Source of the DNA: a virus
Strand: one strand, 5' to 3'
Length of the DNA stretch: 62,997 nt
IMG/VR virus record: IMGVR_UViG_3300009149_000034
Span: 1 to 62,997 of that record
Positions 15,909 through 62,225 of the stretch are shown here, in pieces. How positions within the stretch are numbered: the first letter of the stretch is position 1; every line of letters starts with the position of its first letter. The position numbers and the translations under genes are program-made. The notes under the pieces were generated by a model. The model had not been told where the DNA came from and made no database searches. It worked only from the letters and a program-made list of their open reading frames with translations.

Positions 15909-16291
15909 AAATGGTACTGGATTTCTGCAGAACAAGCCAGAAATGGGAGAGGTTACCTCTCTAGTGCATTCCTTAATGTATGCACGCCACTAAAGGCAGG
16001 CAGGGGCCCTCTAGGCTATTGTTCTTGCGAACAACCGCCCTAGGGCCCCACGCCCCCACTTTCAGCTAGCAGTACCCATGGAGGAACGCCTAACTCTAGG
16101 GGTCGAATTGGACGTGTGGCGCCGACCTAAGCAGTTATACTAACTGGATAGTTTCTCTTACGGGAGAACAGGGGGTGCTACACCCCCATGGATTATTTGC
16201 TACCAGGCCGGGCCTTTTGGTGCCCATTCCGCACAAAAGAACCTACGTAGCAGTTAGTAGGAAGAGAGCAGCCACGCGCTGCTCTTTTTTT
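15909..16291 (+). ncRNA. Candidate structured non-coding RNA ending in an intrinsic terminator
   Basis: This stretch holds no convincing gene but about ten local inverted repeats in series. Arms: 15922-15927/15938-15943; 15947-15952/15956-15961; 15964-15969/15980-15985; a long hairpin 16003-16049 (GGGGCCC/GGGCCCC with an inner GTTC/GAAC); 16101-16105/16123-16127; 16132-16136/16142-16146; 16153-16157/16164-16168; 16171-16177/16181-16187 (GGGGGTG-CTA-CACCCCC); 16242-16246/16257-16261; and the terminator. TATAAA at 15904-15909 could be a -10 box, though no -35 is seen; readthrough from the polymerase is the other source. It lacks RNase P, tmRNA, 6S and group I intron signatures as far as I can tell. 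Function unknown. Confidence 0.6.
16265..16291 (+). terminator. Rho-independent terminator, plus strand
   Basis: An 8-bp perfect stem AGAGCAGC/GCTGCTCT with loop CACGC is followed by a run of T from 16285 to 16291. It ends the replication-block transcript and the candidate RNA 2 bases before the stop codon of the converging terminase gene. On the minus strand there is no T-run after the hairpin, so it acts in one direction only. Confidence 0.9.
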
Positions 16292-17946: not shown

Positions 17947-19188
17947 ATGAGCAGACCTAAAAAGGGTGAGGGAGAAGCACAACATTACTGCGAACTCAAC
18001 GACATCCCGAGAGCGTCGGTTAAGCAGATCAAGGATCAGATCAAGCTTTCGATGGATACGCAGCAACACAGAGGCGTCCCCTGCATCGTCGGAGAAGCGG
18101 GAATCGGAAAGTCGCAGATCGTGGCGCAGCTAGCAAAGGCTAGCGGTGCCAAGGTGTACGACATCAGGACTGCTCACTACGGGCTCGTCGGTGCCGGCAT
18201 CCCCAGCACCAAGAACGCACCAGAGGGATTCTTTGACGTGGTGGTCCCGTCAGTATTTCCCAAGCCCGGAGAAAAGAGCATCATGCTCTTCGAGGAGATC
18301 AACCAGGGTCTCCCACACGCTATCTCCATGTTCTTCAGTCTCATCGAGGACAGGCGCATGTTCAACTACGTGCTGCCGGAAGACACGACCGTTATAGCGC
18401 TGATGAACCCGGCCACTGCCCAATACGCAGTGACTGCGGTCGAGAAGAACGCAGCGCTGAAGAGGCGCCTGAAGTGGATCTTCGCGATAGCGAACTTCCG
18501 GGACTGGCTCGAGCATGCCAAAACGCCGGCGTTCCACGATTCCGACAGCGTCGCTTTCCAAGGAGAGCCCAAGCCCTGCCATCCGCAGGTCCTGTCGTAC
18601 GTGCAGATCTTCAACAGCAACCTGTACGACACCAAGGCAAGAGACCAGGGAAAAGTATACGCCTGCCCAGCAACGTGGCAGACGGTCTCCCTGGACATGT
18701 ACATGATGGAGAAGGGTGGATACGACGTCACGTCCCCCTTCGCGCTGAACAGGATCAGCGCGAGCATCGGGAACACCATGGGCATCCACTACCTGGAGTT
18801 CGTGAAGGATCACAGCACCGCAGTGCGTGCCGACGACGTAATCGAGGATTACACCAAGAGAGCCAAGAAGGCCGTGATCAGCCTTCTCGAGAGTTCACAA
18901 CACGAGAAGATCAACGAGCTCAACGTTAACGTTCTCCGGTATATGTTTGGTGTACAGCCCAAGGCGAAGAAGGCGGCGCACAACCTGGTGGAGTATCTCC
19001 TGGATCTCCCGAACGAGATGCGGTCTAGCGTCCTCAATCAGCTGCGCACGGTCTCGGATGAGAACGATGCGAACGACTACCTCTTCGACATCGTGCGAAA
19101 CTTGCAGCGCCACAAGAACTGGGTAGACGTCCACACACAGTTGGACGAGACCCAGACGCTGGTAGAGAAGGCGCTCGAAGAGGTCTAA
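17947..19188 (+). CDS. MoxR-type AAA+ ATPase
   Basis: A 413-residue AAA+ ATPase of the MoxR class: Walker A GEAGIGKS at 49-56, Walker B IMLFEEIN with E116/E117, sensor 1 as IALMNPA, and an Arg-finger region with KNAALKRRLKW. MoxR ATPases work as chaperone-like remodellers with a VWA-domain partner. Such a partner is encoded at 21008, beyond two minus-strand genes. The ATG at 17947 has AAGGAGG 9 bases upstream; an earlier in-frame TTG at 17926 lies before that site and is unlikely. The gene is visibly richer in G/C-ending codons (CTC, ATC, AAG, GCG) than its neighbours, suggesting separate acquisition or very high expression. Its stop overlaps the converging gene by 4 bases. Confidence 0.88.
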   Translation: MSRPKKGEGEAQHYCELNDIPRASVKQIKDQIKLSMDTQQHRGVPCIVGEAGIGKSQIVAQLAKASGAKVYDIRTAHYGLVGAGIPSTKNAPEGFFDVVVPSVFPKPGEKSIMLFEEINQGLPHAISMFFSLIEDRRMFNYVLPEDTTVIALMNPATAQYAVTAVEKNAALKRRLKWIFAIANFRDWLEHAKTPAFHDSDSVAFQGEPKPCHPQVLSYVQIFNSNLYDTKARDQGKVYACPATWQTVSLDMYMMEKGGYDVTSPFALNRISASIGNTMGIHYLEFVKDHSTAVRADDVIEDYTKRAKKAVISLLESSQHEKINELNVNVLRYMFGVQPKAKKAAHNLVEYLLDLPNEMRSSVLNQLRTVSDENDANDYLFDIVRNLQRHKNWVDVHTQLDETQTLVEKALEEV

Positions 19189-19931
19189 ACCCCACGGAGC
19201 TTCATTACGGTGAGGCCTAAAACCTTAGCTTGTTCTTCCAAGAACAATCTACAGCTCGCTAACTTGGACAACTGGACTCCTAGGCGGTCCTCTGGAAACT
19301 CTGTGTTCTGGAGGACCGTCTTGTCCAGTTGCTTCCAAGCATAGCGTGTTTCACGCTGTAAATTTTTGGCGTCGGAGGATATTATATTGTCCAATACCCC
19401 TTGGCTGAAGTCTAACTCTTCAGGCGCTACAGCCCACCCCGCTCTCTTTAGAACCGTAGCTACGAACATCTGAACGTCGTCATCGAAATCAGGTACATCA
19501 TCGCCATAAGGATCTTGCCCTCGGATTACCGCGGCTTCTATAACTGCCCACGCCATGTGATACACGGAAGGTTCCTGCAAACACTCTGGATTAAAGGGCA
19601 TCCCGTTTAAAGCCTGCACAGTATTCTGGAATACTAGGTTATCCCAGTAGAAAGCTAAATTAGATTGTAAGGTTAAGGCCGCTTCTAGCTTATTTCTGGC
19701 CTCACTATCTAAGTCAATATCGTCCTGCTCTAGGGTTAACCAAAAAGTCTCAGGCTCCCAGTCTTGAATTTGAATACCGTAGAGAGTACGTACCGATGCG
19801 TAGATAGCAGACGCAGGGCAGTCTTCAGGGAGATCCTTCAACAGACTTCTGGCTTCATCCTTATTTTCACCAGAAAGATCAACTGTGAGTTTCACAGTAA
19901 GTTCAGCTAGTTTCTCAAATTCAGGGCGCAT
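19185..19931 (-). CDS. Hypothetical protein, 248 aa, possibly virion-associated
   Basis: Not recognised. Mostly helical and acidic, with PDFDDDVQMFVATVLKRAGW and a C-terminal RLFLEEQAKVLGLTVMKLRG; no transmembrane segment or metal motif. It is co-directional with the gene at 19935 (3 bases apart) and with the terminase. The pair looks like a minus-strand structural or morphogenetic unit inserted between MoxR and its VWA partner. A tail/head completion or chaperone role is only a guess. Confidence 0.75.
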   Translation of the reverse strand: MRPEFEKLAELTVKLTVDLSGENKDEARSLLKDLPEDCPASAIYASVRTLYGIQIQDWEPETFWLTLEQDDIDLDSEARNKLEAALTLQSNLAFYWDNLVFQNTVQALNGMPFNPECLQEPSVYHMAWAVIEAAVIRGQDPYGDDVPDFDDDVQMFVATVLKRAGWAVAPEELDFSQGVLDNIISSDAKNLQRETRYAWKQLDKTVLQNTEFPEDRLGVQLSKLASCRLFLEEQAKVLGLTVMKLRGV

Positions 19932-19934
19932 GCG

Positions 19935-20939
19935 TTACCGGTAAGCGGCCAGTTGTTTTTGCGCTATAGCCATCAAGTCAGCAGGTAAGGTGGGGAGTAA
20001 CTGATAGAGAGCCTCAGGATTAACTGTCTGTCCATCAGTGGATATTTCAGCCGCTATATCATCCCCCAGTAGGTCCTTCCAAAAATCTAGGGGTAACGCA
20101 GCGAGCTTCGACTTATCCATCATGAAGTCAGCCCCCAGAGACACCTGATCTTCCGCTATCTTTTCCGTGTTGAAAACAGTCAACATAGGGTCAGGTAACT
20201 TCGTGCCGTAGTACTTATCAATACCCGCCTCTTTGTCTAGCCCGTGTATTGTGCTAGCTAACTTGATCTGTAACTGGCGATCATTCCACATAGCAGCTTT
20301 TCCAGCGAACTCCTGTGCTATTTTACTGAATGCCCTACCAATAGGAGTGTCCCCACTAGCTGCAGAACGAGCATCCATGTAGTCCTTCAACGTACGGGTG
20401 CTAGTAACTGTAAATCCGGCCAATTTATAGGTAGAAGGAGATAACGTAACGTCATGCCGTTTAGCCGCTACACCCAATCGAGAGAAGGTTTGCGCCCTAT
20501 CTTCAATTGTGAGCTCGGCGTACTTATGGCGTAATGCAGTCTCTGCATACTTAACATCATCCGCAGATGCCACACGGTATCTACTTTTCTCAGGTAGGAG
20601 CCAGTACTCCTCTGACGCGGTCTTCTCCGTAGGAGATTCAACGTAAATATCTTTCTCTATCCCATAAAGTTCCGCAGCCTTATTTAGTTCTGCATCTACA
20701 GTAGCAGGAACGTTAGAAGCCAGCTTACGATACGCAATGGATAACGCAGCATGTTCTTTATTATGCACAGGAAATTTACGTTGTGCCGGCCATGCAAATG
20801 CAGAATCAGCTAACTTCTCAAATTCATCCTCGGCAATGTTCGCTGTCTTAGAGAATTCTTTAAGCGTGGGAAACTTGTCCGTAAGAACACGGAGGCGCGA
20901 GTACCCAGGGTCATTGGTTTGGTCGATCACTGTGGTCAT
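19935..20939 (-). CDS. Hypothetical protein, 334 aa, possibly head-associated
   Basis: Not recognised. The body has Ala/Lys-rich helices; motifs such as FPVHNKEHAALSIAYRKLA and the C-terminal half (GRAFSKIAQEFAGKAAMW, then many charged residues) suggest a soluble virion-internal or assembly protein. It lies 3 bases upstream of the 248-aa gene in one transcription unit. The 5-prime side faces the VWA gene divergently over about 70 bases. Confidence is high that it is a gene, low on function. Confidence 0.75.
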   Translation of the reverse strand: MTTVIDQTNDPGYSRLRVLTDKFPTLKEFSKTANIAEDEFEKLADSAFAWPAQRKFPVHNKEHAALSIAYRKLASNVPATVDAELNKAAELYGIEKDIYVESPTEKTASEEYWLLPEKSRYRVASADDVKYAETALRHKYAELTIEDRAQTFSRLGVAAKRHDVTLSPSTYKLAGFTVTSTRTLKDYMDARSAASGDTPIGRAFSKIAQEFAGKAAMWNDRQLQIKLASTIHGLDKEAGIDKYYGTKLPDPMLTVFNTEKIAEDQVSLGADFMMDKSKLAALPLDFWKDLLGDDIAAEISTDGQTVNPEALYQLLPTLPADLMAIAQKQLAAYR

Positions 20940-21007: not shown

Positions 21008-22414
21008 GTGGAAAACAAGGAAAACCCTTCGGTGAAAGAAATACGAGATGAGTCTTACAAAGCCATGGGCGCCGTCATGCAATGGCTCAGCAGCCCCCGT
21101 GGCGGAGACAACTTCTACGGACGGATCATGAATGGGTGCGGCAGAACGCCCAAGGAGGGGGTAAAAACAGCGTGTGTGACTCTTACCTCGGAGGGAAAGT
21201 ATCTCCTCCTCTGGGATCCAGCATGGTTCGTTAGCCGTAAGATGCCAGACCGCATCCTGACGGTGATCCATGAAGCGGGGCACATCGTCCTACAACATCT
21301 GGAAAGAGCCCTACGTCTGCGGCTCTCCGTACGAGAACCAGAAGTGTTCCAACGGCTCCTACCCATCTTTAATATCGCTGCTGACATGGCGTCAAACGAT
21401 ATTGCTCTCAGGCCCTTCGTAGATTCCGGAGTCTTCAAGAACTACAAGGACGGGTTTCTCTTCCCGGAGAACCCACAATACGATTTTCCAGAGAATCAGA
21501 CGTTCGAGAAGTACCTGGAACTCCTCATTCAGAAGGCTAAGTCCGAGGGGTACAACCCCAAAACAGGTGAGGGCGCTGTACCCCAATGGATGGAAGGGAT
21601 GCAGGGACACCTGCCCTGGTGGAATGAACTCGACTCAATGACAGAGGATGAGATCGAGAACATGCACCAGAGAGCGAAGAGGGAATCGAAGAAGATCGTT
21701 AAGAAGGCTGTCGAGCAGACAAAGAAAGACCGCGGAACAATGCCTTCAGGTCTGGAGGGTCTGATCGAAGGAATGCTCGAGGAACCTCAGGTTCCCTGGA
21801 CAGTGATGCTCCAGAACCTGATGAAGGGGAGCATTACCTCCAAGCTGGACGAGAGCACCGCGTGGCCTAACATCGGACTGCTCACGGAAGAGGCGATGGC
21901 GCAGGGGATGGAGCCTTATCCGGGTTTCCAGAAAAAGCCAGGTATCCACGTGACCGTGGCTATCGACACTTCTGGAAGTGTTTCGGACGAGAACTTCAAG
22001 AAGTTCATGGGTGAGATCCAAGGAATTATGAGCAGCGAACAGGCTGTGAGCGTGCACGTACTCATGTTTGATGCCGCTATCCAACATGAGTTCATCCTCA
22101 AGGAGGACTCCAATATCGATAACCAGCATCGTTATCGGTATGGGTACGGAGGAACATCCTTTACACCAGCACTCCGGCATATACTGGGAGTGGATGATGA
22201 CCAGAACTGGGAAGAAAACGCAGAACGTCTGAAAGAGCCCGCCCCTCGCCCAGACATGGTTGTCATGTTCACGGATGGTTACGCACCTGTAACCGAGGAA
22301 GAGGGCGGACCTATGCCCAAGTATGAACCCCCATGCCCACTAATGTGGGTGATCACCGAAGACGGTACTGTTCATCCAGGCATGGGCAGTAGGGTCGTCA
22401 AGATGGAGTACTAG
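21008..22414 (+). CDS. Metallopeptidase-like/VWA-domain protein (DUF2201-like), MoxR partner
   Basis: A 468-residue protein. The N-terminal half has HEAGHIVLQH (H88, E89, H92), a zincin-like motif, followed by NIAADMASND, as in the predicted metallopeptidase part of DUF2201-type proteins. The C-terminal half is a VWA-like domain with an intact MIDAS: AIDTSGSVS (D320, S322, S324), a GGTSFTPAL threonine and MFTDGYAP. VWA proteins of this kind bind a MoxR ATPase, which is present at 17947. GTG 21008 is preferred because AGGAGG sits 7 bases before it; an upstream GTG at 20972 precedes that site. First gene of a four-gene operon with the reverse transcriptase (next ATG 3 bases after the stop). Codon use is G/C-ending-rich like the MoxR gene. 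Confidence 0.85.
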   Translation: MENKENPSVKEIRDESYKAMGAVMQWLSSPRGGDNFYGRIMNGCGRTPKEGVKTACVTLTSEGKYLLLWDPAWFVSRKMPDRILTVIHEAGHIVLQHLERALRLRLSVREPEVFQRLLPIFNIAADMASNDIALRPFVDSGVFKNYKDGFLFPENPQYDFPENQTFEKYLELLIQKAKSEGYNPKTGEGAVPQWMEGMQGHLPWWNELDSMTEDEIENMHQRAKRESKKIVKKAVEQTKKDRGTMPSGLEGLIEGMLEEPQVPWTVMLQNLMKGSITSKLDESTAWPNIGLLTEEAMAQGMEPYPGFQKKPGIHVTVAIDTSGSVSDENFKKFMGEIQGIMSSEQAVSVHVLMFDAAIQHEFILKEDSNIDNQHRYRYGYGGTSFTPALRHILGVDDDQNWEENAERLKEPAPRPDMVVMFTDGYAPVTEEEGGPMPKYEPPCPLMWVITEDGTVHPGMGSRVVKMEY

Positions 22415-22417
22415 CCC

Positions 22418-23029
22418 ATGAAGATCTACCGACTTAAACTGCGTCAGAGGCGTCTGGATAATACTCGGAAGCATGCTTTCCACTACTTCCCATTCGACAA
22501 TGTCTACTTCGTTCCGACGAACCAAGTATCGATTAGTCGGCGCCTATTCAGGTACTGCCTAATAATCGATGTTGATCCGACGTTACGGAGTGCCATTAAA
22601 GATGTGTCAGTACAGAAGCACCGAGTGTTAGAGATCCCTCGTAGAGACAACATCGCATGGACAGACACCGATAAGGACGAAGACGTTACAGAATTCCTGA
22701 ATAAGGGAGACTGGACTATGCTGGTACCTACATACGCCCGTGTAGACAAGCATACGAACACAGCTAAGCTAAGTTACGTCTTGTCCGACGCAGTTAAGGG
22801 TATGCACAATCTGACCGCGCACCTTCCAGGTGTTAAGATCCAAACACCTAAACGTACAGTGCCTGCAATTTGTGCCCTGTGTGCACAAGCAGCGAACTAC
22901 TACGCTAACAAGTGTTCACCTGGAAGGCGCGTGTGTGCCAATAACATAGCACTATCTAGCGATGCGCTAGACCTACAAACCATCGTTGACATTGAAGAGT
23001 CTATCCGTGGTGCAGGAGAAGTAAAATGA
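22418..23029 (+). CDS. Hypothetical protein with C-terminal Cys cluster, RT-operon member, 203 aa
   Basis: Not recognised. The N-terminal 110 residues mix beta strands and basic segments (KIYRLKLRQRRLDNTRKH, RRLFRYCLIIDVDP). The C-terminal part has a C-x2-C-x10-C-x6-C cluster in CALCAQAANYY...CSPGRRVC, a likely zinc or iron-sulfur site similar to others in this phage. GGAG precedes ATG 22418. Its TGA overlaps the ATG of the reverse transcriptase, so the two are translationally coupled. The basic surface and metal site would suit a nucleic-acid-binding partner of the transcriptase, an inference from context. Confidence 0.8.
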   Translation: MKIYRLKLRQRRLDNTRKHAFHYFPFDNVYFVPTNQVSISRRLFRYCLIIDVDPTLRSAIKDVSVQKHRVLEIPRRDNIAWTDTDKDEDVTEFLNKGDWTMLVPTYARVDKHTNTAKLSYVLSDAVKGMHNLTAHLPGVKIQTPKRTVPAICALCAQAANYYANKCSPGRRVCANNIALSSDALDLQTIVDIEESIRGAGEVK

Positions 23030-24207
23030 CTAATGGATACGAGGATACACGACTAGAGGAAATACACGTAAATACCAAGTTAGATCCTTTGATCATTGAT
23101 GACTTCTCCTTAGCCTTCTTCCTAGGCTTCCGGAATAAAACCTTGTGGCATGCGCTCTACGCAAATACCGGCAACATGTATAAGGTGTTCAAGATACCCA
23201 AGAAAACTGGGGGATACCGGATGATCCATGCGCCGGAGCCGCTGATGAAGCACTTATTGGACAGAGTACATGTACGTTTACTGATGCCCCTACAGGAAAA
23301 GTTAGGGGACCACGTCACCGCATACCGTGAAGGTAAATCCATAACGGATGCGGTGGCGTACCATATTCCTAAGTGCAAAATTTGCGATTCAGCTCCTCCA
23401 GACAAGACACCCAAGAAGCATGACTGCCCTAAACGTGGTGTCTACATACACATGGATCTCAAGAACTTCTTCTCTAACACCCGTCGAGCCTGGGTTCGTA
23501 ACTACTTCATGCACAAAGGATATAGCTTTTACGTTAGCGGGCTAATTGCGCAGCTTGTTACTGTCGACGACATCCCTAACCCTAGGTACCCCAATGCGGT
23601 AGGACACCAGAAAGACAAATTACGAGAATTCTTTACAGGTGTACCGCAAGGAGGACCCACGTCAGGGGCGATATGCAACTTGGTTGCAGACTATAGGATG
23701 GATAAACCCATACTAGAGTACATACGGGAACTAAACAAACGACATGGGTTAAACGGTGAAAGGTCCTGGAGGTATTCTCGTTACGCAGATGATATGACAT
23801 TCACCTGCGGAATAGATCTTACGAGAGAAGAGAAGACCCAAATAACTAAAGAGATCCAAAAGGTCGTCGAAAAGTCGGGCTACCGCATAAATGAAAAGAA
23901 GACGCGTATCTCTAACTCGTACTACCGTAAAACGATGTTAGGTGTAGTATTTAATCAAAAGCCTAATATACCAAAAGAGAAGTACATGCGTATGCGCGCC
24001 ATCATCCACAACTGTGTAACTCAAGGAATCAAAAGTCAGGTTAATAGAGTACACAGGAAAGACGCAGATGACCTAGTCCTCTACCTTAGAGGAATGGTTA
24101 GCTACTACTCACAAGTCCACCCTAAGAAGGCAGCAAAGCTTAAAGAGGAACTCGATGTGGCAATAGCTAATCACCTAAAGGAGGAAGGAGCGCAAGCTGC
24201 ATGTTAA
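23026..24207 (+). CDS. Retron-type reverse transcriptase with a Cys/His insertion
   Basis: A 393-residue RNA-dependent DNA polymerase. Block 1 is IPKKTGGYRMIHAPEP (57-72). SITDAVAYH (105-113) parallels the retron NAxxH motif, as DAVAYH. Motif A is HMDLKNFF (D144), block 4 GVPQGGPTSG (205-214), the catalytic YADD 253-256, then GYRINEKKTRI and MLGVVFN, the place of the retron VTG motif. Between NAxxH and motif A lies an insertion with C117, C120, H132 and C134, a potential metal knuckle not found in ordinary retron RTs to my knowledge. It lacks group II intron maturase/endonuclease domains, and no template/variable repeat pair marks it as a DGR RT. It overlaps both neighbours; there is no adjacent room for an msr-msd RNA, the usual retron template. 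Confidence 0.93.
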   Translation: MTNGYEDTRLEEIHVNTKLDPLIIDDFSLAFFLGFRNKTLWHALYANTGNMYKVFKIPKKTGGYRMIHAPEPLMKHLLDRVHVRLLMPLQEKLGDHVTAYREGKSITDAVAYHIPKCKICDSAPPDKTPKKHDCPKRGVYIHMDLKNFFSNTRRAWVRNYFMHKGYSFYVSGLIAQLVTVDDIPNPRYPNAVGHQKDKLREFFTGVPQGGPTSGAICNLVADYRMDKPILEYIRELNKRHGLNGERSWRYSRYADDMTFTCGIDLTREEKTQITKEIQKVVEKSGYRINEKKTRISNSYYRKTMLGVVFNQKPNIPKEKYMRMRAIIHNCVTQGIKSQVNRVHRKDADDLVLYLRGMVSYYSQVHPKKAAKLKEELDVAIANHLKEEGAQAAC

Positions 24208-25607
24208 AAAAAGAGGCTTACTACGAGGGACCTATATTTACACTAGCCCGTTCTAATGCAGAGGACCGTCCTGAGTTACTTTTCATCAATACTACACGTA
24301 ACGAAGATTTCAATGAAGAGGATATAGAGACTATTGCGGAGAGTTCCCTAGTAAAAAAATTACTGGGGGACTCTTTTATATTAGTACTAGCGCCACAACG
24401 AAAATGGAATCAACGTTATCGGTGGAATAGTGACCCCAAGGAACACGACTTAAAATTGAATGTACTGCATGTTACACCTGACGTTAGTAACTTACTAATT
24501 AATAGATTAGATGAACCTTATCTGCGAAATGCGAAGGTATGGTTACGGAAGTCAGATGGTACCTTAAAAGCTTATGTGCCAAATGATGTTCATAATTATT
24601 GTCCCTCTCCTGCAAAATACGTAATGTCCTGTGAAGACTGTATGAGGAAAGGTGAGTTTACTGCTTGTGAATTTAGCAAGTTTGCCTCGTACATATCCGA
24701 GGACTTTAGCGGTATGGATAACTTCGATGCTATTAGATCTAAGCTTATACACCGTAAAACTAAAGTAGGTCCGTACTTATTCGTAAGTGCTTCCATGACA
24801 CATCCAGGTATAGAACCGTACTTACGACCCGCACGTGAGCATTACTTTGAAGTCGTAGAATCTGTCGCAGATATCCGTCGAAAAGCTAACTTAGAAAGGA
24901 CCAGATTCAACAAATTTAAGAAAGCAGAGTGTGCCAATTGTATGCTGCATAATACTTGCCATACACGTTTGTATGATGATTACTTTATACGATACTGTAG
25001 TGGAAAGTATGAAGGCGACGAAAAGACAATAGCCTCCAGGATGGTTGATAAAGTTACGATCCCTTATACACCTACACAACTACGTTATCTCACTCTAAAT
25101 TCTGGGATATTAAATAAGCGTGTGAATAGGTGTAAGTACACGGCGACGTTCAAACTGTTTGAAGGACCCTATTATGATACTACGGATGGAACTACAACGT
25201 CGCGTCCTACGTTACTATTCGGTATACATAGAACTCTGCTCCCCGGCCAGTGCTCATTCATGCCTATAAGAGACTTCGATGATGCCGTGAGACTACTTAA
25301 TGGTAAAAAAGACTATGTGATACCTAAGGATCGAAAGTACTTTAACACCGTTCAAACTGCTACTCTTCTACAGTTGTGTCATCAGCAATACTCAGTAGCT
25401 CGAGGAGGATGGGGCTGTACGTCCTACCCGAGAGCGTTTACAACCTACGACAGACTCTATGACTGTTTCAAGAGTTACCACTACTATCCGCATAGCTCCA
25501 TAACAGCCAATTGGACAACGGTAGCAGCAAAAAATCTAAAAGATGTTTACATAGAATACAAGCGTTTCATGCTAGAGGAGAAATCAGTATCACCGTTGAG
25601 ACGATAA
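24201..25607 (+). CDS. Cys-rich protein of unknown function, RT-operon member, 468 aa
   Basis: Not recognised. It starts 7 bases inside the reverse transcriptase gene. Two metal-type clusters are visible: CEDCMRKGEFTAC in the first half and CANCMLHNTC followed 12 residues later by another Cys (C-x2-C-x5-C-x12-C). The second resembles those in the SNF2 helicase at 340. Many Tyr/Arg/Lys residues and a basic C-terminus suggest nucleic-acid contact. No nuclease, helicase or transmembrane signature was found. Codons are A/T-richer than the VWA gene. It ends 1 base before the converging gene at 25609. As last member of the operon it is the best candidate for an effector or dedicated RT accessory protein, but this is inferred only from position. 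Confidence 0.8.
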   Translation: MLKKEAYYEGPIFTLARSNAEDRPELLFINTTRNEDFNEEDIETIAESSLVKKLLGDSFILVLAPQRKWNQRYRWNSDPKEHDLKLNVLHVTPDVSNLLINRLDEPYLRNAKVWLRKSDGTLKAYVPNDVHNYCPSPAKYVMSCEDCMRKGEFTACEFSKFASYISEDFSGMDNFDAIRSKLIHRKTKVGPYLFVSASMTHPGIEPYLRPAREHYFEVVESVADIRRKANLERTRFNKFKKAECANCMLHNTCHTRLYDDYFIRYCSGKYEGDEKTIASRMVDKVTIPYTPTQLRYLTLNSGILNKRVNRCKYTATFKLFEGPYYDTTDGTTTSRPTLLFGIHRTLLPGQCSFMPIRDFDDAVRLLNGKKDYVIPKDRKYFNTVQTATLLQLCHQQYSVARGGWGCTSYPRAFTTYDRLYDCFKSYHYYPHSSITANWTTVAAKNLKDVYIEYKRFMLEEKSVSPLRR

Positions 25608-25608
25608 T

Positions 25609-26715
25609 TTAAACAGAATTAGGGTCAAAGTCAGAACAAACACTACTAACCGCAGCTAGAGCCTCGCTCTCAGCTGTTTGGGCAGAGGCTAACGTAGCCT
25701 CTGCCTCTATTTTGGTTTCAACCGATGCGGCTAGTGCGGCGTTCTTTTGATTCAACTTATTAACAGACGCAGCATACTCACTGTTAGCCCAACCACAATA
25801 ACTCGTAACTAGCGAAGATAGATTTGATTCATATGTCTCGACGTTTTGACGAGGTAAAACAGCGGGATCAAATGTACCAAGTAAATACCCTCCAGGACCG
25901 TACATCGCTATAAGGGCATCGCGCATAGCACCACGCGCTGCCAGATCAGAACCTGTAGAAGGGGCAGTAGGCCATCGACTAGTGTCACCAGCAGATGTGC
26001 ACCAAGCGTCATAAGCCACGATCATACCACCGGACAAAATAGGATCTACATTAGTACGTAACCCTGTAGCTCCGATTACATACGTATGGAAGAAATTATT
26101 CACAGCTGGCTGATACGTAGTCCAATTACTCGTAAATTGAGTACAGTAGTTAACTGCCTCTTCCATTAAGTCTACGAGAGATTGCGCGTCAGAAGCAGCA
26201 CTCTGTGCCGCGGTTACGGCAGCTTCCGCTGCGGTTAACTCCACCTCGGCTAACTGACGTGCTGAGCGTGCTGAAGTAAAGTCGTCTTCTAGTTGCTGCA
26301 CGAAAGCAGGAGATACGGATGGGTGTGAAGACATCGAATCAACAGCGTAGAAGCTAGTCTTATACAGATACCAATCACTACTAAGAGTATCTACTTTAGA
26401 GTAGATAGCGTCCTTAGCTAGCACCGCATCTGTCAACTTATCAAAGTTTACCGAAAACTCTGCGTCTAAATAATACGTATCACCAGCCGCAATAGCAGCA
26501 GCACGACTGACTGCCAAGGTCTGAAGATCCCGAGGGGTCCCAACACGGGTGAATGTGTCTAAGGCTACATCCGCAGGATCCGCGATTGTAAATACAAAGA
26601 TCTGATATTGGGGTAATTCCCCTGGGGAAGTTACAACCGTTCTTATACGGTATGGGCGAGTACCATCAGGTAGTGTAATCTGCTGTCTATCCTGTTCCAA
26701 CGCAGTGTATTCCAT
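25609..26715 (-). CDS. Virion-like protein with coiled coil, 368 aa
   Basis: Unknown function. The N-terminal 100 residues (YRIRTVVTSPGELPQYQIFVF, then YxRVGTPRDLQTLAV-like features) resemble the start of the two genes upstream in this unit. The centre contains an Ala-rich coiled coil (AEVELTAAEAAVTAAQSAAS) and the C-terminus another Ala-rich helix. Such combinations occur in baseplate or fibre-attachment proteins. It is third in a three-gene minus-strand unit (28399 to 25609) with 2-4-base spacing. No enzymatic motif seen. Confidence 0.7.
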   Translation of the reverse strand: MEYTALEQDRQQITLPDGTRPYRIRTVVTSPGELPQYQIFVFTIADPADVALDTFTRVGTPRDLQTLAVSRAAAIAAGDTYYLDAEFSVNFDKLTDAVLAKDAIYSKVDTLSSDWYLYKTSFYAVDSMSSHPSVSPAFVQQLEDDFTSARSARQLAEVELTAAEAAVTAAQSAASDAQSLVDLMEEAVNYCTQFTSNWTTYQPAVNNFFHTYVIGATGLRTNVDPILSGGMIVAYDAWCTSAGDTSRWPTAPSTGSDLAARGAMRDALIAMYGPGGYLLGTFDPAVLPRQNVETYESNLSSLVTSYCGWANSEYAASVNKLNQKNAALAASVETKIEAEATLASAQTAESEALAAVSSVCSDFDPNSV

Positions 26716-26717
26716 GA

Positions 26718-27092
26718 TTAACCCTCTATATACGTGTAGTCAAACACACCAGGAAACTCCCCGGTAGCTTCACTGTACGCCCTTGCTAACCCTTCAGTAC
26801 GTGACCGGGTGTAGACTGCAAATTCCAACGCGGTCTCTATAGAAGGATACTCACGATAAGCCTCATCCGATAGGTAGTAGGGAGAACCAATCACAATCGC
26901 TTCCTCTTTACTAGCGGGAGTATTATCTATATGCCACACGGTAGCTACGTGTTCAAAGTAATCCGTCTCAGTATTCATAACGAATATTTCCCGTTCGATC
27001 CCTATACTACGAGTTACCTTGTTAGTTACTCGATACATGGGAACACCAGGTATGACTTCCTGCGTTTGTCTCAACTCAATCGTGATACTCAT
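26718..27092 (-). CDS. Small virion-like protein, 124 aa, single copy of a shared domain
   Basis: A short beta-rich protein: GVPMYRVTNKVTRSIGIERE, IFVMNTETDYFEHVATVW and SPYYLSDEAYREYPSIETAL. The pattern (Y-R-V-x-T-x-V, then F-V...Y...VAT) parallels the N-termini of both neighbours, so the three genes probably arose by duplication of one domain. Its start overlaps the upstream stop by 4 bases. The role is likely structural. Confidence 0.7.
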   Translation of the reverse strand: MSITIELRQTQEVIPGVPMYRVTNKVTRSIGIEREIFVMNTETDYFEHVATVWHIDNTPASKEEAIVIGSPYYLSDEAYREYPSIETALEFAVYTRSRTEGLARAYSEATGEFPGVFDYTYIEG

Positions 27093-28399
27093 TCGAATGT
27101 CTCCGTCGATACTGACGAGAAGTTGTCAGCGTCGAATGCGTCTACTAACGACTGTGCTTGCGTTTTCATCGCTGCTAATAAACTTTGGGCCTCATTAAAG
27201 TCAGATACGACTGTATCATATGTGTCTACTCTATAATAGAGCTCGTCATCTCCTGTTATATTCCTCGCAGCTACACCATCATCATACGGACCATATACAC
27301 TAATACCGCGTGTTACAGTGTACGTAAGCGCCCCCTCGTACGCTGTAAATCCCGAGGAAACTACTGCTTCATCCCCCACACTTGAACTAACCGTATTAGT
27401 AACGGTAGGAGGCACGACCCCCATCTCTTCCCATAGCGGTGTAGTATCAATCGTCAGGGTATCACCTGTAGTCGCAGATCCCCCTGGAAGTTCTAATAGA
27501 TATGCAGACAAGAATTTAGTTAAAGCCGGAACACTCGTCACTACGTTATCTAAGTCACTCAGCGTAGCAACCCTCACGAGTTGTTCTCGCGTGTCCTCCA
27601 ATGCTCTTCTAAAAACGATACTATCATGCAGGTCTGTTTCGGTAGTAGCAGTGTCCACTTCTACGTGAAAGTAGTAACCATCTGTACCAGCAGGCGACCC
27701 CATAGCTTTAGTAATATACCTCAGTCTAAGTTGGGTACCCATCGTTCCAGTGTAAAGTACCCACTCATCGGATTCAAACTGATTTAAGTCATAAGAGTCA
27801 GCGAGAGTTTGTAGGTCGTCGCGCATAGTATTCACGAGAGTCACGATAGAAGTCTTGCTAGTATCGAAGAAAGAATAATCGCCTACTAAAAACTCGGTAC
27901 CTACGAATCCGGTGTAATCCCTGTCAGCTTGTCCGTCACTATAAGGCCCATATACAGCGGTTCCTCTAGTTACTGTAAACTTTATATTTTGAGCATACGC
28001 TAAAAAATTCTCTCCTACTATGCCGTCTACGCCTACGACACTATTCACAGTATATGTTTTACCTGCGGATACACCCATTTCCCGCCATACTGGCGAGAGC
28101 GGAGACATGATAGTTATCACATCACCAGCCAGGAAGGTTCCTACAGCTCCCAGAAAACTAGTGGAGCGTATTAAATTAACAGGAGGTACATCCACAGAAA
28201 GTGTAGCCAGATCAGACAGGGTAGCTACTCTCGTATACTGTTCTGCTGTCGGAAAAGAGGCTTTGGTAATCACGAACGGCGTTTCTAACTCATCCGGCGT
28301 AGTAGAAGTTTCAACTTTAGTTCTAACAAAATAACCGTCATCCCCTGGGGGAGATCCGATAGCTCTCTTCGTAAAAGTTACTGTTATCTTTGAAGGCAT
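27089..28399 (-). CDS. Virion-like protein made of two tandem repeats, 436 aa
   Basis: Residues about 1-215 and 219-430 are copies of one another. Each has GSPxGxDGYxxxxxVxT early, then RVATLSDL, a MGV segment after W-x-E, TVTRGxxVYGPYxDG, and a final helical stretch rich in LxxxAxS. This tandem duplication gives a beta-rich, repetitive protein of the sort used in tail tips or fibres. First of a three-gene minus-strand unit, divergent from the RuvC-like gene by 43 bases. No catalytic residues were recognised. Function is inferred as structural from composition only. Confidence 0.75.
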   Translation of the reverse strand: MPSKITVTFTKRAIGSPPGDDGYFVRTKVETSTTPDELETPFVITKASFPTAEQYTRVATLSDLATLSVDVPPVNLIRSTSFLGAVGTFLAGDVITIMSPLSPVWREMGVSAGKTYTVNSVVGVDGIVGENFLAYAQNIKFTVTRGTAVYGPYSDGQADRDYTGFVGTEFLVGDYSFFDTSKTSIVTLVNTMRDDLQTLADSYDLNQFESDEWVLYTGTMGTQLRLRYITKAMGSPAGTDGYYFHVEVDTATTETDLHDSIVFRRALEDTREQLVRVATLSDLDNVVTSVPALTKFLSAYLLELPGGSATTGDTLTIDTTPLWEEMGVVPPTVTNTVSSSVGDEAVVSSGFTAYEGALTYTVTRGISVYGPYDDGVAARNITGDDELYYRVDTYDTVVSDFNEAQSLLAAMKTQAQSLVDAFDADNFSSVSTETFE

Positions 28400-57869: not shown

Positions 57870-58078
57870 TATTGCCGCGCTTTCAGTGCAGTACTCTCGA
57901 GGTAATCCCTATAAGGAACAGCCCCAGTCTCATTTACCATGATATATGCACGCTCAATCAGAGGAGGAAATACCACATGAGCTTCATGCTTATTCCGTAG
58001 ATTACCTACGATGTTACGATTAGCTACCCTGAGAAAATTCTCAGGTTTTGGGAGCATATACTTTACACGTTTATCCAT
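57869..58078 (-). CDS. Small tail-associated protein, 69 aa
   Basis: Basic short protein starting MDKRVKYMLPKPENFLRVANR, ending in RDYLESTALKARQ. It begins one base after the stop of the tape-measure gene and its stop overlaps the next ATG by one base, so it is translated as part of this operon. It may be a tail terminator or adaptor; nothing distinctive is seen. Confidence 0.65.
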   Translation of the reverse strand: MDKRVKYMLPKPENFLRVANRNIVGNLRNKHEAHVVFPPLIERAYIMVNETGAVPYRDYLESTALKARQ

Positions 58079-61000
58079 CTACTTCGTCTCCTCTAACTTA
58101 GCCGTGATTTTCTCTGTTGCTACGCCGAAAGCTTTCACGCTTTTATTAAATATAACAGCGGAGTCATTGAATGACTTGCCACTTCCTGGAGCTGCACCAC
58201 CACCTAATAAACCAGTGAGAGTATCTGCAATATTACCTAACGCGCTCTTAGCCTTACTCTCTTTTTCTGTAGGTGCCGCAGTTAAAGCGATATCTTCCTC
58301 TATAGCTACAGACTCCGCACCCGCTAAACCTGAAATTCGTCTGTAAGCAGCTTCTTTAGTCTGCAAACCTGCTTTAACAAGATTAGCTTGAAGTCCTATA
58401 ATCTTACCTGCTCCACCAGAAGCAATCATTTTATCAATATCTTCTTTACTCTTACCCTCTAAACCTAAGTCATCCCATTGTGCTATATTCCCCTTCTTAG
58501 CAGATTCTGAAATCCCCGAGACGGGCCTGAGTAATGACTCGAACCCCGCTTGCGTTTTTGTATATTGCCCTGTAACTGCCAGATTAGCGAATAGTTGATC
58601 TCTTTGGGTGTCACTCTTTGTCGCACCTCTATTCATAAGAGAAAAAACCTCACGCTGTTCTTCCGTAAGACCCCTACCCTGTTCACGTACACTCTCCCAA
58701 AACTCTCCAAACCCCGCGTCAGACTTCTTATCCTTAATCCACCTAGCACGAGTATCGTCAAAACCCGATCCCCCCCGCATGTATGCACTTAAAGCTCTCG
58801 CCTTTTCCTCCGTTATTCCTTCCGTAATACCACCTAGTGTCTTCTGTTGCGCCTTTGTTAACCCTCCCCCACGCTCTCGTATACCAAAGAGAGATCCGCG
58901 CTGACCTGCTAAAGTCTTTTTACGCTCCTCCAAACTCAAATCACCGAAGGCATCTTCCTCCGCCTTCAGAAACCCACTAGCATCCTTAAATTGTTTCGTC
59001 ATTTGCCCCCGCATCTGCTTTTCGGCTTCTCCCGATCCTTGCGCGCCTATCTCACCTATCATCCCATAAAGTTTAGCTTTATTCTCTTCACTTAACCCTT
59101 CGAATTTACCAATACTAGTACCGGCACCCTGCATACCCTGCATAGCATAATTTCTAAAATCTTCAGTTAACCACGCTCCCCCATCACCAGTACCACCTCT
59201 CTTTACCGTATAATCTGCACCAAGAGCCGCGGCACCTTTTTCAACAATGCTTTCTACGTCTGTTTCGCTAACCCCTAGAGCTTTAGCTAATTCACTCTTA
59301 CCTCGAGCACGTCCTTCTTTACTTTTGTATCTCTCCATACCCCCAAAAACTTTAGACATGGTGCGAGACTCACTACGAGCAAAATCAATCATCTTATCTT
59401 TACCAAAAAGTTTTTCTACCTTATCACCATATATGAATTTATTTAAACCTGAGTCCATACCGAACTCCAAACTATTACCTGCCATAGTCTCTACGATACC
59501 TTGGTCAGCACCAAAATAAGATGCTAACCCTCCCGCCATAGACATAGCATCACTCACCATATTACCTGCATAACGCCAGTCGACGCCCCCTTTACCAGCA
59601 GCAGTTCTTTCGTATGCTGCACCGGTCTTATTGGCCATAAGACCATAAGCGTACATCATATCTTTTCCGCGGTAATTAACGTCAGATGCTGCAAAATCTG
59701 TTTTTTCTGAACCAGTCAGCTGTGCCCCACGCTTCATAATTTTGCCAGCATTACGTTGTAAAAAAGCCCGCTCTGACGCAGAATGCGTTACTTGTATATC
59801 ATCACGCCGGCGAATATACCTTCCTTCTTCAGCGGCGGCACGATCCTCAAAGAAATTAGACACGCCCGAACCTATACCGGAAAAGAACCCACCTAATGTA
59901 TCTATATCCTGCCCAAAAGCCTGAGACGTAGTAGTTCCTACTTCACTAAGTCTCCTACCCCCTGCCGAACGTGAAACCATCCCTCCTAATCTTCCCCAAT
60001 AACCAGGAGCAGCGTCCTGTGTTTTCTTATAATCTTCCATCGACCTTTCTTGAATACTCTGATTCAAAGACTTCTTCTGCATATCCCAGAACTCAGTGGA
60101 TCCCCCTAACTCCATCATCTGTATAGCTGCGTCATCCCCGAACAACCTACGTGCTCCAAAACCTAGCGCTGCTTTACCCTGAAGGCCCTCTTCTCTACCT
60201 GTATCAATAGCCATTCGGTACTGCATGGCCATCATCTCTTGTGGAGATAGTTGATCAACCGCCTGAGACATGAGTTCTCTTTGCCGGAGAGGGTACATCG
60301 CCATCTCACTCATAGATGCACCCTTGAACTGCTTCTTGGCGCGCTTCCTCAAACTCTTGAGCCCCATAGCCCCAGGGCTAGATAGATCCCCAAGAGCCTC
60401 CTTATCCAGGGCCCAGTCCCCTCCAGTGCGCATACTAACAGCCAACCCTAAAGCCTCATTGGACATCATAGAGGCACCTATCTGCATATTACGTCCCGCT
60501 ACACCCTCAACACCCCCGAGCATCTGAAGTTGTCGTGGAGTCATAGACCCAGCCGCAACACCCTGTCGGGCAGACGCCAATGAGTACATACCGTAGTTAT
60601 ACCCAGTGCCTGCGCCTAATCCCGCGCCAGCAAAAGTAGCTGCACCAGCCATACCACCACTAGATTGAATAGCCTCTATAGACGCACCCGCTGCTCTCGA
60701 GTAAGTCCTCATGCCCGATGCTGCTTCACGCATCTGCATTTGATCCATACCAAGTTGTGTACCCATCTGCGACATTGTTCGAATGACGTTGCTCACATCA
60801 GGGTCTTGCGTAAGCTGCATGAATTCTTTGATCGTACGCGCGGTAGTTCGAAGATTCTGTTTAATAGCCTGCACATCCTGGCTTTGATCCATCAAACCAG
60901 ACTGCCCACCCTGCTTGAGGATATTCATCAAGTCCATCTGGTTGAACATCCCGCCCGTCTCAGACTTAAATGAACTACTACCTGCTAACCCCCTAACTTC

Positions 61001-61855: not shown

Positions 61856-62127
61856 TGCTTAGTCTTCTCACCATGTAAAAGAGGTGAATTTGCAGTAATA
61901 CGATCAAGCTTACTCATGATTCTCATGCGCCCTTCGACCTTAGCCACAAATTCAGCCAACCGGCGCTCACTCGCCGGGGTATATCCTGAATTATACCGCA
62001 CTTGGTACAGCTCTTCACTGTAGTCTTCTAAAAGACCTTCAGTATATTCTACTGATGCTCCACTTATGGGACTCAAAACTTTCACTAAAAGTGCAGCAAA
62101 AGCGAACTTCTCATTACGCTCTCGCAT
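61852..62127 (-). CDS. Tail assembly chaperone, frameshift-fused C-terminal part (T of G-T)
   Basis: From ATG 62127 this reads MRERNEKFAFAALLVKVLSP and ends HGEKTKQ; but no ribosome binding site precedes that ATG, and the same frame stays open upstream for another 34 codons to 62229, directly into the 3-prime end of the 200-aa gene in the -1 frame. The natural product is thus probably a 325-residue fusion made by -1 slippage, not a separate 91-aa protein. In lambda-like and many other tails this G/GT arrangement recruits the tape measure, which lies directly downstream here. Helical and charged, no catalytic motif. Confidence 0.75.
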   Translation of the reverse strand: MRERNEKFAFAALLVKVLSPISGASVEYTEGLLEDYSEELYQVRYNSGYTPASERRLAEFVAKVEGRMRIMSKLDRITANSPLLHGEKTKQ

Positions 62128-62225
62128 AAGTAATTCAGATAATACGCGTTCTTGAAAAGACCCAAGAGGTGGTAGCGGGGCACCTCGGAGTAGTGCTTGG
62201 GACCGGGCTTGACCCGCTACCGAAC

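Follow-up and report, generated by a model that had tools for sequence, protein, structure and literature searches.

On a phage genome fragment of 62,997 nucleotides (IMG/VR record IMGVR_UViG_3300009149_000034; hereafter the window, meaning this whole stretch), we identified a reverse transcriptase (RT) encoded with two orphan Cys-rich proteins, G2 and G4, and a non-coding array of retron-like hairpin units that may serve as its template. The gene order around the RT is fixed in related phages, and comparable arrays recur there and beside other phage RTs. We conclude from the sequences that this module is probably a retron-like system of the phage core, equipped with a multi-template non-coding RNA (ncRNA) array, whose products and role we infer. 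Retrons are bacterial defence elements, normally with one template. If our reading is true, a phage lineage carries a core retron-like RT together with template arrays, and its phages make specific single-stranded DNA (ssDNA) for their own use.

The RT and its conserved partners

The RT contains a Pfam RVT_1 domain with an intact YADD active site, and YADD or YSDD is present in all module RTs except those of L218-220 (YSDN). Its best PADLOC model is RT_XIII, likewise for most other module members tested. When a profile of the RT clade was compared with solved structures in PDB, retron RTs (2e-48) were ahead by some 30 orders of magnitude, followed by group II (5e-17), DRT2 (8e-8) and AbiK (2e-4) RTs. 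A tree of 189 rows unites the main module RTs in one clade (SH-aLRT 95), part of which carries a Cys insert ahead of motif A; the L218-220 RTs sit on a very long branch and their placement is unsure. By these comparisons the RT lies within the retron radiation, far from defence-associated RTs (DRT), abortive infection (Abi) RTs and group II RTs, and membership in DRT or Abi was rejected on the profile scores. No pair of template and variable repeats (TR/VR) of a diversity-generating retroelement (DGR) was found near the RT. It is thus very improbable, and already disfavoured, that the RT is of the DGR or DRT kind and serves to diversify a phage gene or to make DNA without a template, even though MoxR-vWA systems, one of which is present at this locus, can be DGR-linked (PMC7159879).

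IMG/VR viral contigs were scanned with protein alignments, and family hidden Markov models (HMMs) were then mapped on the loci; single-protein scans of viral contigs with the RT, G4 or the VWA protein had returned zero relatives, and alignment-based scans were needed. The RT alignment retrieved six contigs (RT identity 32-56%, same flanking genes), and an alignment of the upstream AAA ATPase retrieved many more. The module is present in 32 contigs, a count that includes several near-identical ones. The shared order is terL(-), AAA(+), two minus genes, VWA(+), G2(+), RT(+), G4(+), minus genes and RuvC(+). G2, RT and G4 are all supported in 27/32 contigs, and two others (L198 and L212) end before G4. 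In L218-220 the order is VWA-RT-G2like-G4like; there, G4 support is weak (hhalign probability 82%) and G2 support consists of the Cys knuckle alone. No RT-less module was found among those of the 32 contigs that extend beyond VWA, and the RT is better conserved than VWA in most genomes and better than G2 and G4 in all. The control phages Arash and D181, whose terL is related, lack an RT genome-wide. Because of the fixed synteny, the RT conservation and the absence of RT-less contigs beyond VWA, the module looks like a vertically inherited core part of these genomes rather than recent cargo.

The homologues of G2 share an invariant C-terminal four-Cys knuckle, and those of G4 two four-Cys groups. 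Both proteins had zero matches in Pfam, PHROGs, PADLOC and NCBIfam, and sequence searches of phages and PDB gave nothing useful. The AlphaFold2 (AF2) models, both of moderate confidence (pLDDT 79), had no Foldseek match below 0.001 in PDB, nor, for G4, in BFVD. Across ~250 loci, HMM matches for G2 and G4 were confined to module loci, except for a weak G2 match in L226 (E 8e-4); a held-out G4, in L211, was recovered at 4e-35. Because of the Cys patterns and the fixed co-occurrence with the RT, both proteins are probably metal-binding, and we infer that they are likely nucleic-acid-binding partners of the RT. G4 evolves fast among module phages.

The VWA protein has a different history. It comprises Pfam DUF2201_N (E 9e-13) and DUF2201/VWA (E 5e-15) domains, carries a HEAGH zincin motif and matches phrog_1314. 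Its usual partner, a MoxR-type AAA (phrog_1297), lies ~2 kb upstream, so that the locus holds both members of the phage MoxR-vWA pair: a MoxR-type AAA and a vWA protein with an N-terminal metallopeptidase domain. In jumbo phages, this pair, with the metallopeptidase fused to vWA, has been proposed to act in virion assembly (PMC7824862). VWA relatives are widespread in phages, and many contigs hold AAA and VWA without an RT. Since the pair is known from jumbo phages and found widely without an RT, the VWA protein is, on genomic context, a neighbour with its own history and a co-chaperone of the upstream AAA, not an RT-specific partner.

A first-pass annotation of this DNA had described a four-gene operon around a retron-type RT, with a gene set unlike any described retron, DGR, Abi or DRT system. 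The operon is present as claimed, with all four open reading frames (ORFs) on the plus strand and spacers of +3, -4 and -7 between VWA, G2, RT and G4; since dozens of diverged phage contigs repeat this gene order, it is not a product of chance. The retron affinity of the RT was borne out by its placement, and we too found no matching gene set. The two Cys partner families do co-occur with the RT, bar the one weak G2 match, whereas the VWA protein does not belong with them. The core of the operon is therefore RT, G2 and G4, with VWA apart. The first-pass annotation had overlooked the AAA partner and the non-coding hairpin array.

Hairpin arrays as candidate templates

The array occupies a 382-nt gap between the DNA polymerase gene and terL. 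Its two units share a predicted layout in which a stem formed by complementary segments (a1/a2) closes two short hairpins (P1 and P2, msr-like) and a long msd-like hairpin (Table 1). An ncRNA descriptor of this layout matched twice in the window, both times inside the gap, and nowhere else on either strand; at the control rate of 51 matches per 2.73 Mb, ~0.007 would be expected for the gap. The plus strand folds with a z of -4.3 and is the preferred strand, because it places the msr-like hairpins ahead of the long one, which is the retron order, and a T-run hairpin follows unit 2. Rfam gave no match to the array at the gathering threshold, and a DNA search of arrays against phages gave no match. 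Below threshold, a Tymo_tRNA-like model (a tRNA-like 3' element) matched unit 2 (16135-16205, 21.6 bits, E 0.026), which was taken as chance.

Most module genomes have a non-coding, hairpin-filled gap of ~160-1550 nt at the 3' end of terL. In L183, a leader GGTACTGG starts a few bases past the DNA polymerase stop. After it come four GCAGTACC copies, with a different long hairpin ahead of each; the a1 segment GGTACTG is the reverse complement of a2, CAGTACC, and none of 200 shuffles gave repeats as good. Three a2-type copies are present in each of L175 and L180. The pattern in these relatives is one a1-like leader facing three to four complementary, identical a2 copies, each behind a different hairpin. 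Single units occur in L182 (a1/a2 of 10 nt, 10 bp) and L211 (13 nt, 13 bp). In all, a1/a2-closed stems are predicted from sequence alone in the window (two), L183, L175, L177, L180 (two), L182 and L211. Gap repeats beat all or nearly all shuffles in L183, L214, L216, L218, L219, L220, L188, L200, L201 and L184; the terL-side array of L218-220 consists of tandem three-hairpin units.

Comparable arrays adjoin other phage RTs. In the phage contig L017 (L017:4546-5600), ten GGAAAGGTAGGC-like copies, each behind a different long hairpin, lie directly upstream of an RT that belongs to the same radiation and has a Cys-rich extension at its N terminus; the copies face a single complementary leader, ACCTACCT. 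Among 165 RT loci, L017 is the outlier and the Staphylococcus jumbo phage Madawaska comes next. Immediately upstream of the Madawaska RT are five tandem units, all of which contain a hairpin around ATGAATACG; phages LY01 and S6 retain all five, and the joint fold contains ten compensatory pairs. L019, whose RT is related to that of L017, has a non-coding stretch without a clear repeat. In another phage contig, the C-terminal part of an RT (L018:5818-7374) reads by eye as TIR-like, resembling retron type XII.

A number of results weigh against the array as a retron-type template of this RT, or set the module apart from retrons. Where retrons are defined by NAXXH in region X and VTG in region Y (PMC6868368), the window RT has AVAYH, with other substitutions but mostly the H kept across the clade, and MLG, with MLG or LLG across the main clade. 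The segment a1 is followed by G (CTG|GA), and AGC, the expected priming site, occurs at the a2 side instead. There is no contiguous msr-msd-RT cassette: G2, RT and G4 overlap, and the array and the RT are ~7 kb apart, separated by terL and two more genes of the opposite strand. No known retron effector was recognised by PADLOC in G2, G4 or their homologues. Folding of the minus strand is equally good or better (z -5.5), and the repeats of the window array alone are not significant against shuffles. The P2 hairpins show compensatory changes (0/500 shuffles), but this covariation is partly by construction, and inflated, as the units were chosen by a hairpin-demanding descriptor. Model R1, built on the window's subclade, recovered a single held-out unit at E<0.05 (L179 6662); the arrays of other subclades differ in sequence and are barely reached by it. 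L185 and L198 show no clear gap at the 3' end of terL.

The array might be a packaging RNA, or a terminator or processing RNA of terL and the DNA polymerase gene, with the RT template elsewhere (such as operon RNA) or lacking. Its position against terL and ~7 kb from the RT, the folding of both strands and the lack of retron-specific motifs in the RT all fit this explanation. The retron-like anatomy of the units, with one leader and many complementary copies, does not, and Arash, with a related terL and no RT, has just a 22-nt gap 3' of terL. In L017 and the S. aureus jumbo phages, arrays adjoin related RTs and are not near terL; these cases link retron-like units to phage RTs, and a pure packaging-signal reading is less likely. 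Within the operon, no msr-msd was found beside the RT, where there is little room for one because most genes abut or overlap; strong hairpins in its coding DNA occur in single genomes only, at places that are not shared, and were rejected as a template. We regard the non-template explanation as unlikely, though it is the most serious of the competitors.

Table 1. Coordinates of the RT module, the hairpin array and related features (window positions unless a contig is named).
Feature	Position	Strand	Remarks
VWA/metallopeptidase-like protein	21008..22414	+	DUF2201 domains, phrog_1314; found with AAA without RT
G2, 203 aa orphan protein	22418..23029	+	invariant C-terminal four-Cys knuckle; homologues at same place in module phages
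RT of retron clade, 393 aa, YADD	23026..24207	+	RVT_1 4e-21; PADLOC RT_XIII 3e-59; PDB retron RTs 2e-48
G4, 468 aa orphan protein, two four-Cys groups	24201..25607	+	AF2 pLDDT 79, no fold match
MoxR-type AAA ATPase	17947..19188	+	AAA_5 2e-7; phrog_1297 5e-39; syntenic in all module phages; alternative start possible at TTG 17926
Non-coding array of retron-like RNA units, candidate RT template	15909..16290	+	between DNA polymerase gene and terL, 3' of terL
Array unit 1	15913..16076	+	a1 15913-15919, candidate priming G 15920, P1 15921-15944, P2 15946-15962
Array unit 1, 3' part	msd-like hairpin 16003-16049, a2 16070-16076	+	anatomy and fold
Array unit 2	16138..16259	+	a1 16138-16146, candidate priming G 16147, P1 16152-16167, P2 16171-16187
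Array unit 2, 3' part	msd-like hairpin, then a2 16251-16259	+	anatomy and fold
Terminator-like hairpin with T-run, array end	16265..16291	+	by eye; not listed by consensus scan
Module RT with YSDN in place of YxDD	L218:13493-14518, L219:13400-14425, L220:13451-14485		
Five tandem retron-like hairpin units, unannotated	L004:3115-4394 (Madawaska), L253:607-1891 (LY01), L254:621-1897 (S6)		directly upstream of RNA-directed DNA polymerase gene

The window itself is a fragment of a myovirus-like genome with genes for DNA polymerase, primase, helicase, ribonucleotide reductase, a sigma factor, RuvC, terL and a baseplate protein. Minus-strand genes at 19185-20939 and 25609-28399 interrupt and flank the plus-strand AAA/VWA/RT block; their position is also conserved, and most lack an assigned function. 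A repeat-rich gap at 61856-62225 has no array layout, is probably coding and was rejected. At 58001-60000, within a 1258-aa minus-strand ORF, the GC skew is strong (-0.36).

Proposed mechanism and role

We favour, with some reservation, a mechanism in which RT, G2 and G4 reverse-transcribe the msd-like hairpins of the array from the G after a1 in an a1:a2 duplex. A plus-strand transcript of the gap separating the DNA polymerase gene from terL would provide the ncRNA. Its msr-like P1/P2 hairpins would be recognised by the RT together with its obligate Cys-rich partners G2 and G4. Synthesis would begin at the G immediately 3' of a1, in each case with a1 paired to the a2 that follows a hairpin. 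One or more of the long hairpins may thereby be copied into branched RNA-DNA molecules, by an RT acting on an array encoded ~7 kb away. With one leader a1 and three to four identical a2 copies, one priming element could serve several templates. The first-pass annotation had left the template and product of the RT open; this question is now narrowed to a candidate multi-unit array 3' of terL.

The weakest step is that the products would act in the phage's own cycle. Fixed retention argues for a core role, and rapid change in G4 and in the hairpins for contact with a partner that itself changes. Given this rapid sequence change under a conserved architecture, host takeover or counter-defence by ssDNA or RNA-DNA decoys is our first, still tentative, candidate; replication or packaging comes second as a weaker possibility, and superinfection exclusion third, as the least likely of the three. 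Exclusion was among the roles proposed earlier, and the fixed core-genome retention favours a core phage function over an accessory exclusion or defence cassette. It is likewise rather unlikely that the module is a phage-carried retron variant for defence or exclusion, in which an RT-DNA complex holds G4 or G2 as a toxin until another phage is sensed. Retrons are defence systems, the RT lies in their radiation and G4 evolves fast, but neither G2 nor G4 has a known effector domain, and a fixed core position with no losses in 32 contigs is unlike patchy defence cargo.

Taken together, our tentative overall proposal is that of a retroelement belonging to the phage core and passed on vertically. 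Its RT, accompanied by two new Cys-rich protein families, would use a single a1/msr leader to prime all the different hairpins of an array, every one of which carries the same a2 tag, and would yield a set of multicopy ssDNAs (msDNA) for the phage's cycle; retron-type RTs of other phages, the cultured S. aureus jumbo phages included, would be served by related arrays. The proposal offers a testable answer for the unexplained RTs of large phages, those cultured phages among them, and one leader for many templates would be a natural design for several ssDNAs out of one transcript.

Comparison with known systems

The module resembles bacterial retrons (msr-msd-RT-effector; closest model PADLOC RT_XIII) in its RT clade, YADD motif, predicted a1/a2-closed ncRNA and combination of short msr-like and long msd-like hairpins. 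It differs from them in that NAXXH and VTG are replaced and the a1 end lacks AGC, and also in its multi-unit candidate template array ~7 kb from the RT, its orphan Cys-rich partners and its phage-core inheritance. The system thus appears retron-like by anatomy, yet we do not file it as a retron type, because NAXXH, VTG, AGC at a1, a contiguous cassette and a known effector are all lacking. DRT, Abi, DGR and group II RTs have the RVT_1 fold in common with it, with far weaker profile scores and no matching gene set. The jumbo phage MoxR-vWA pair comprises the same AAA and VWA genes, but was described without an RT, as a proposed virion assembly chaperone (PMC7824862).

The RT of S. aureus jumbo phages (Madawaska gp208, DC4 UFVDC4_00113), whose role was left unresolved in the paper on these phages (PMC10638138), is likewise retron-like (~25% identity) and accompanied by a tandem hairpin array; unlike in the module, the array adjoins the RT, and no G2 or G4 was seen. 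For a one-leader-many-templates array and for core-phage status, we found no precedent in the literature, the nearest being the duplicated repeats of Retron-Nex1 (Ne160), in which msr/msd occur in several copies with no RT within a kilobase (PMC6868368). The array of the module is similar in its several msr-msd copies away from the RT. However, Ne160 is bacterial and its whole msr and msd are duplicated, whereas the phage module has a fixed, syntenic RT operon and can set many a2 copies against one leader.

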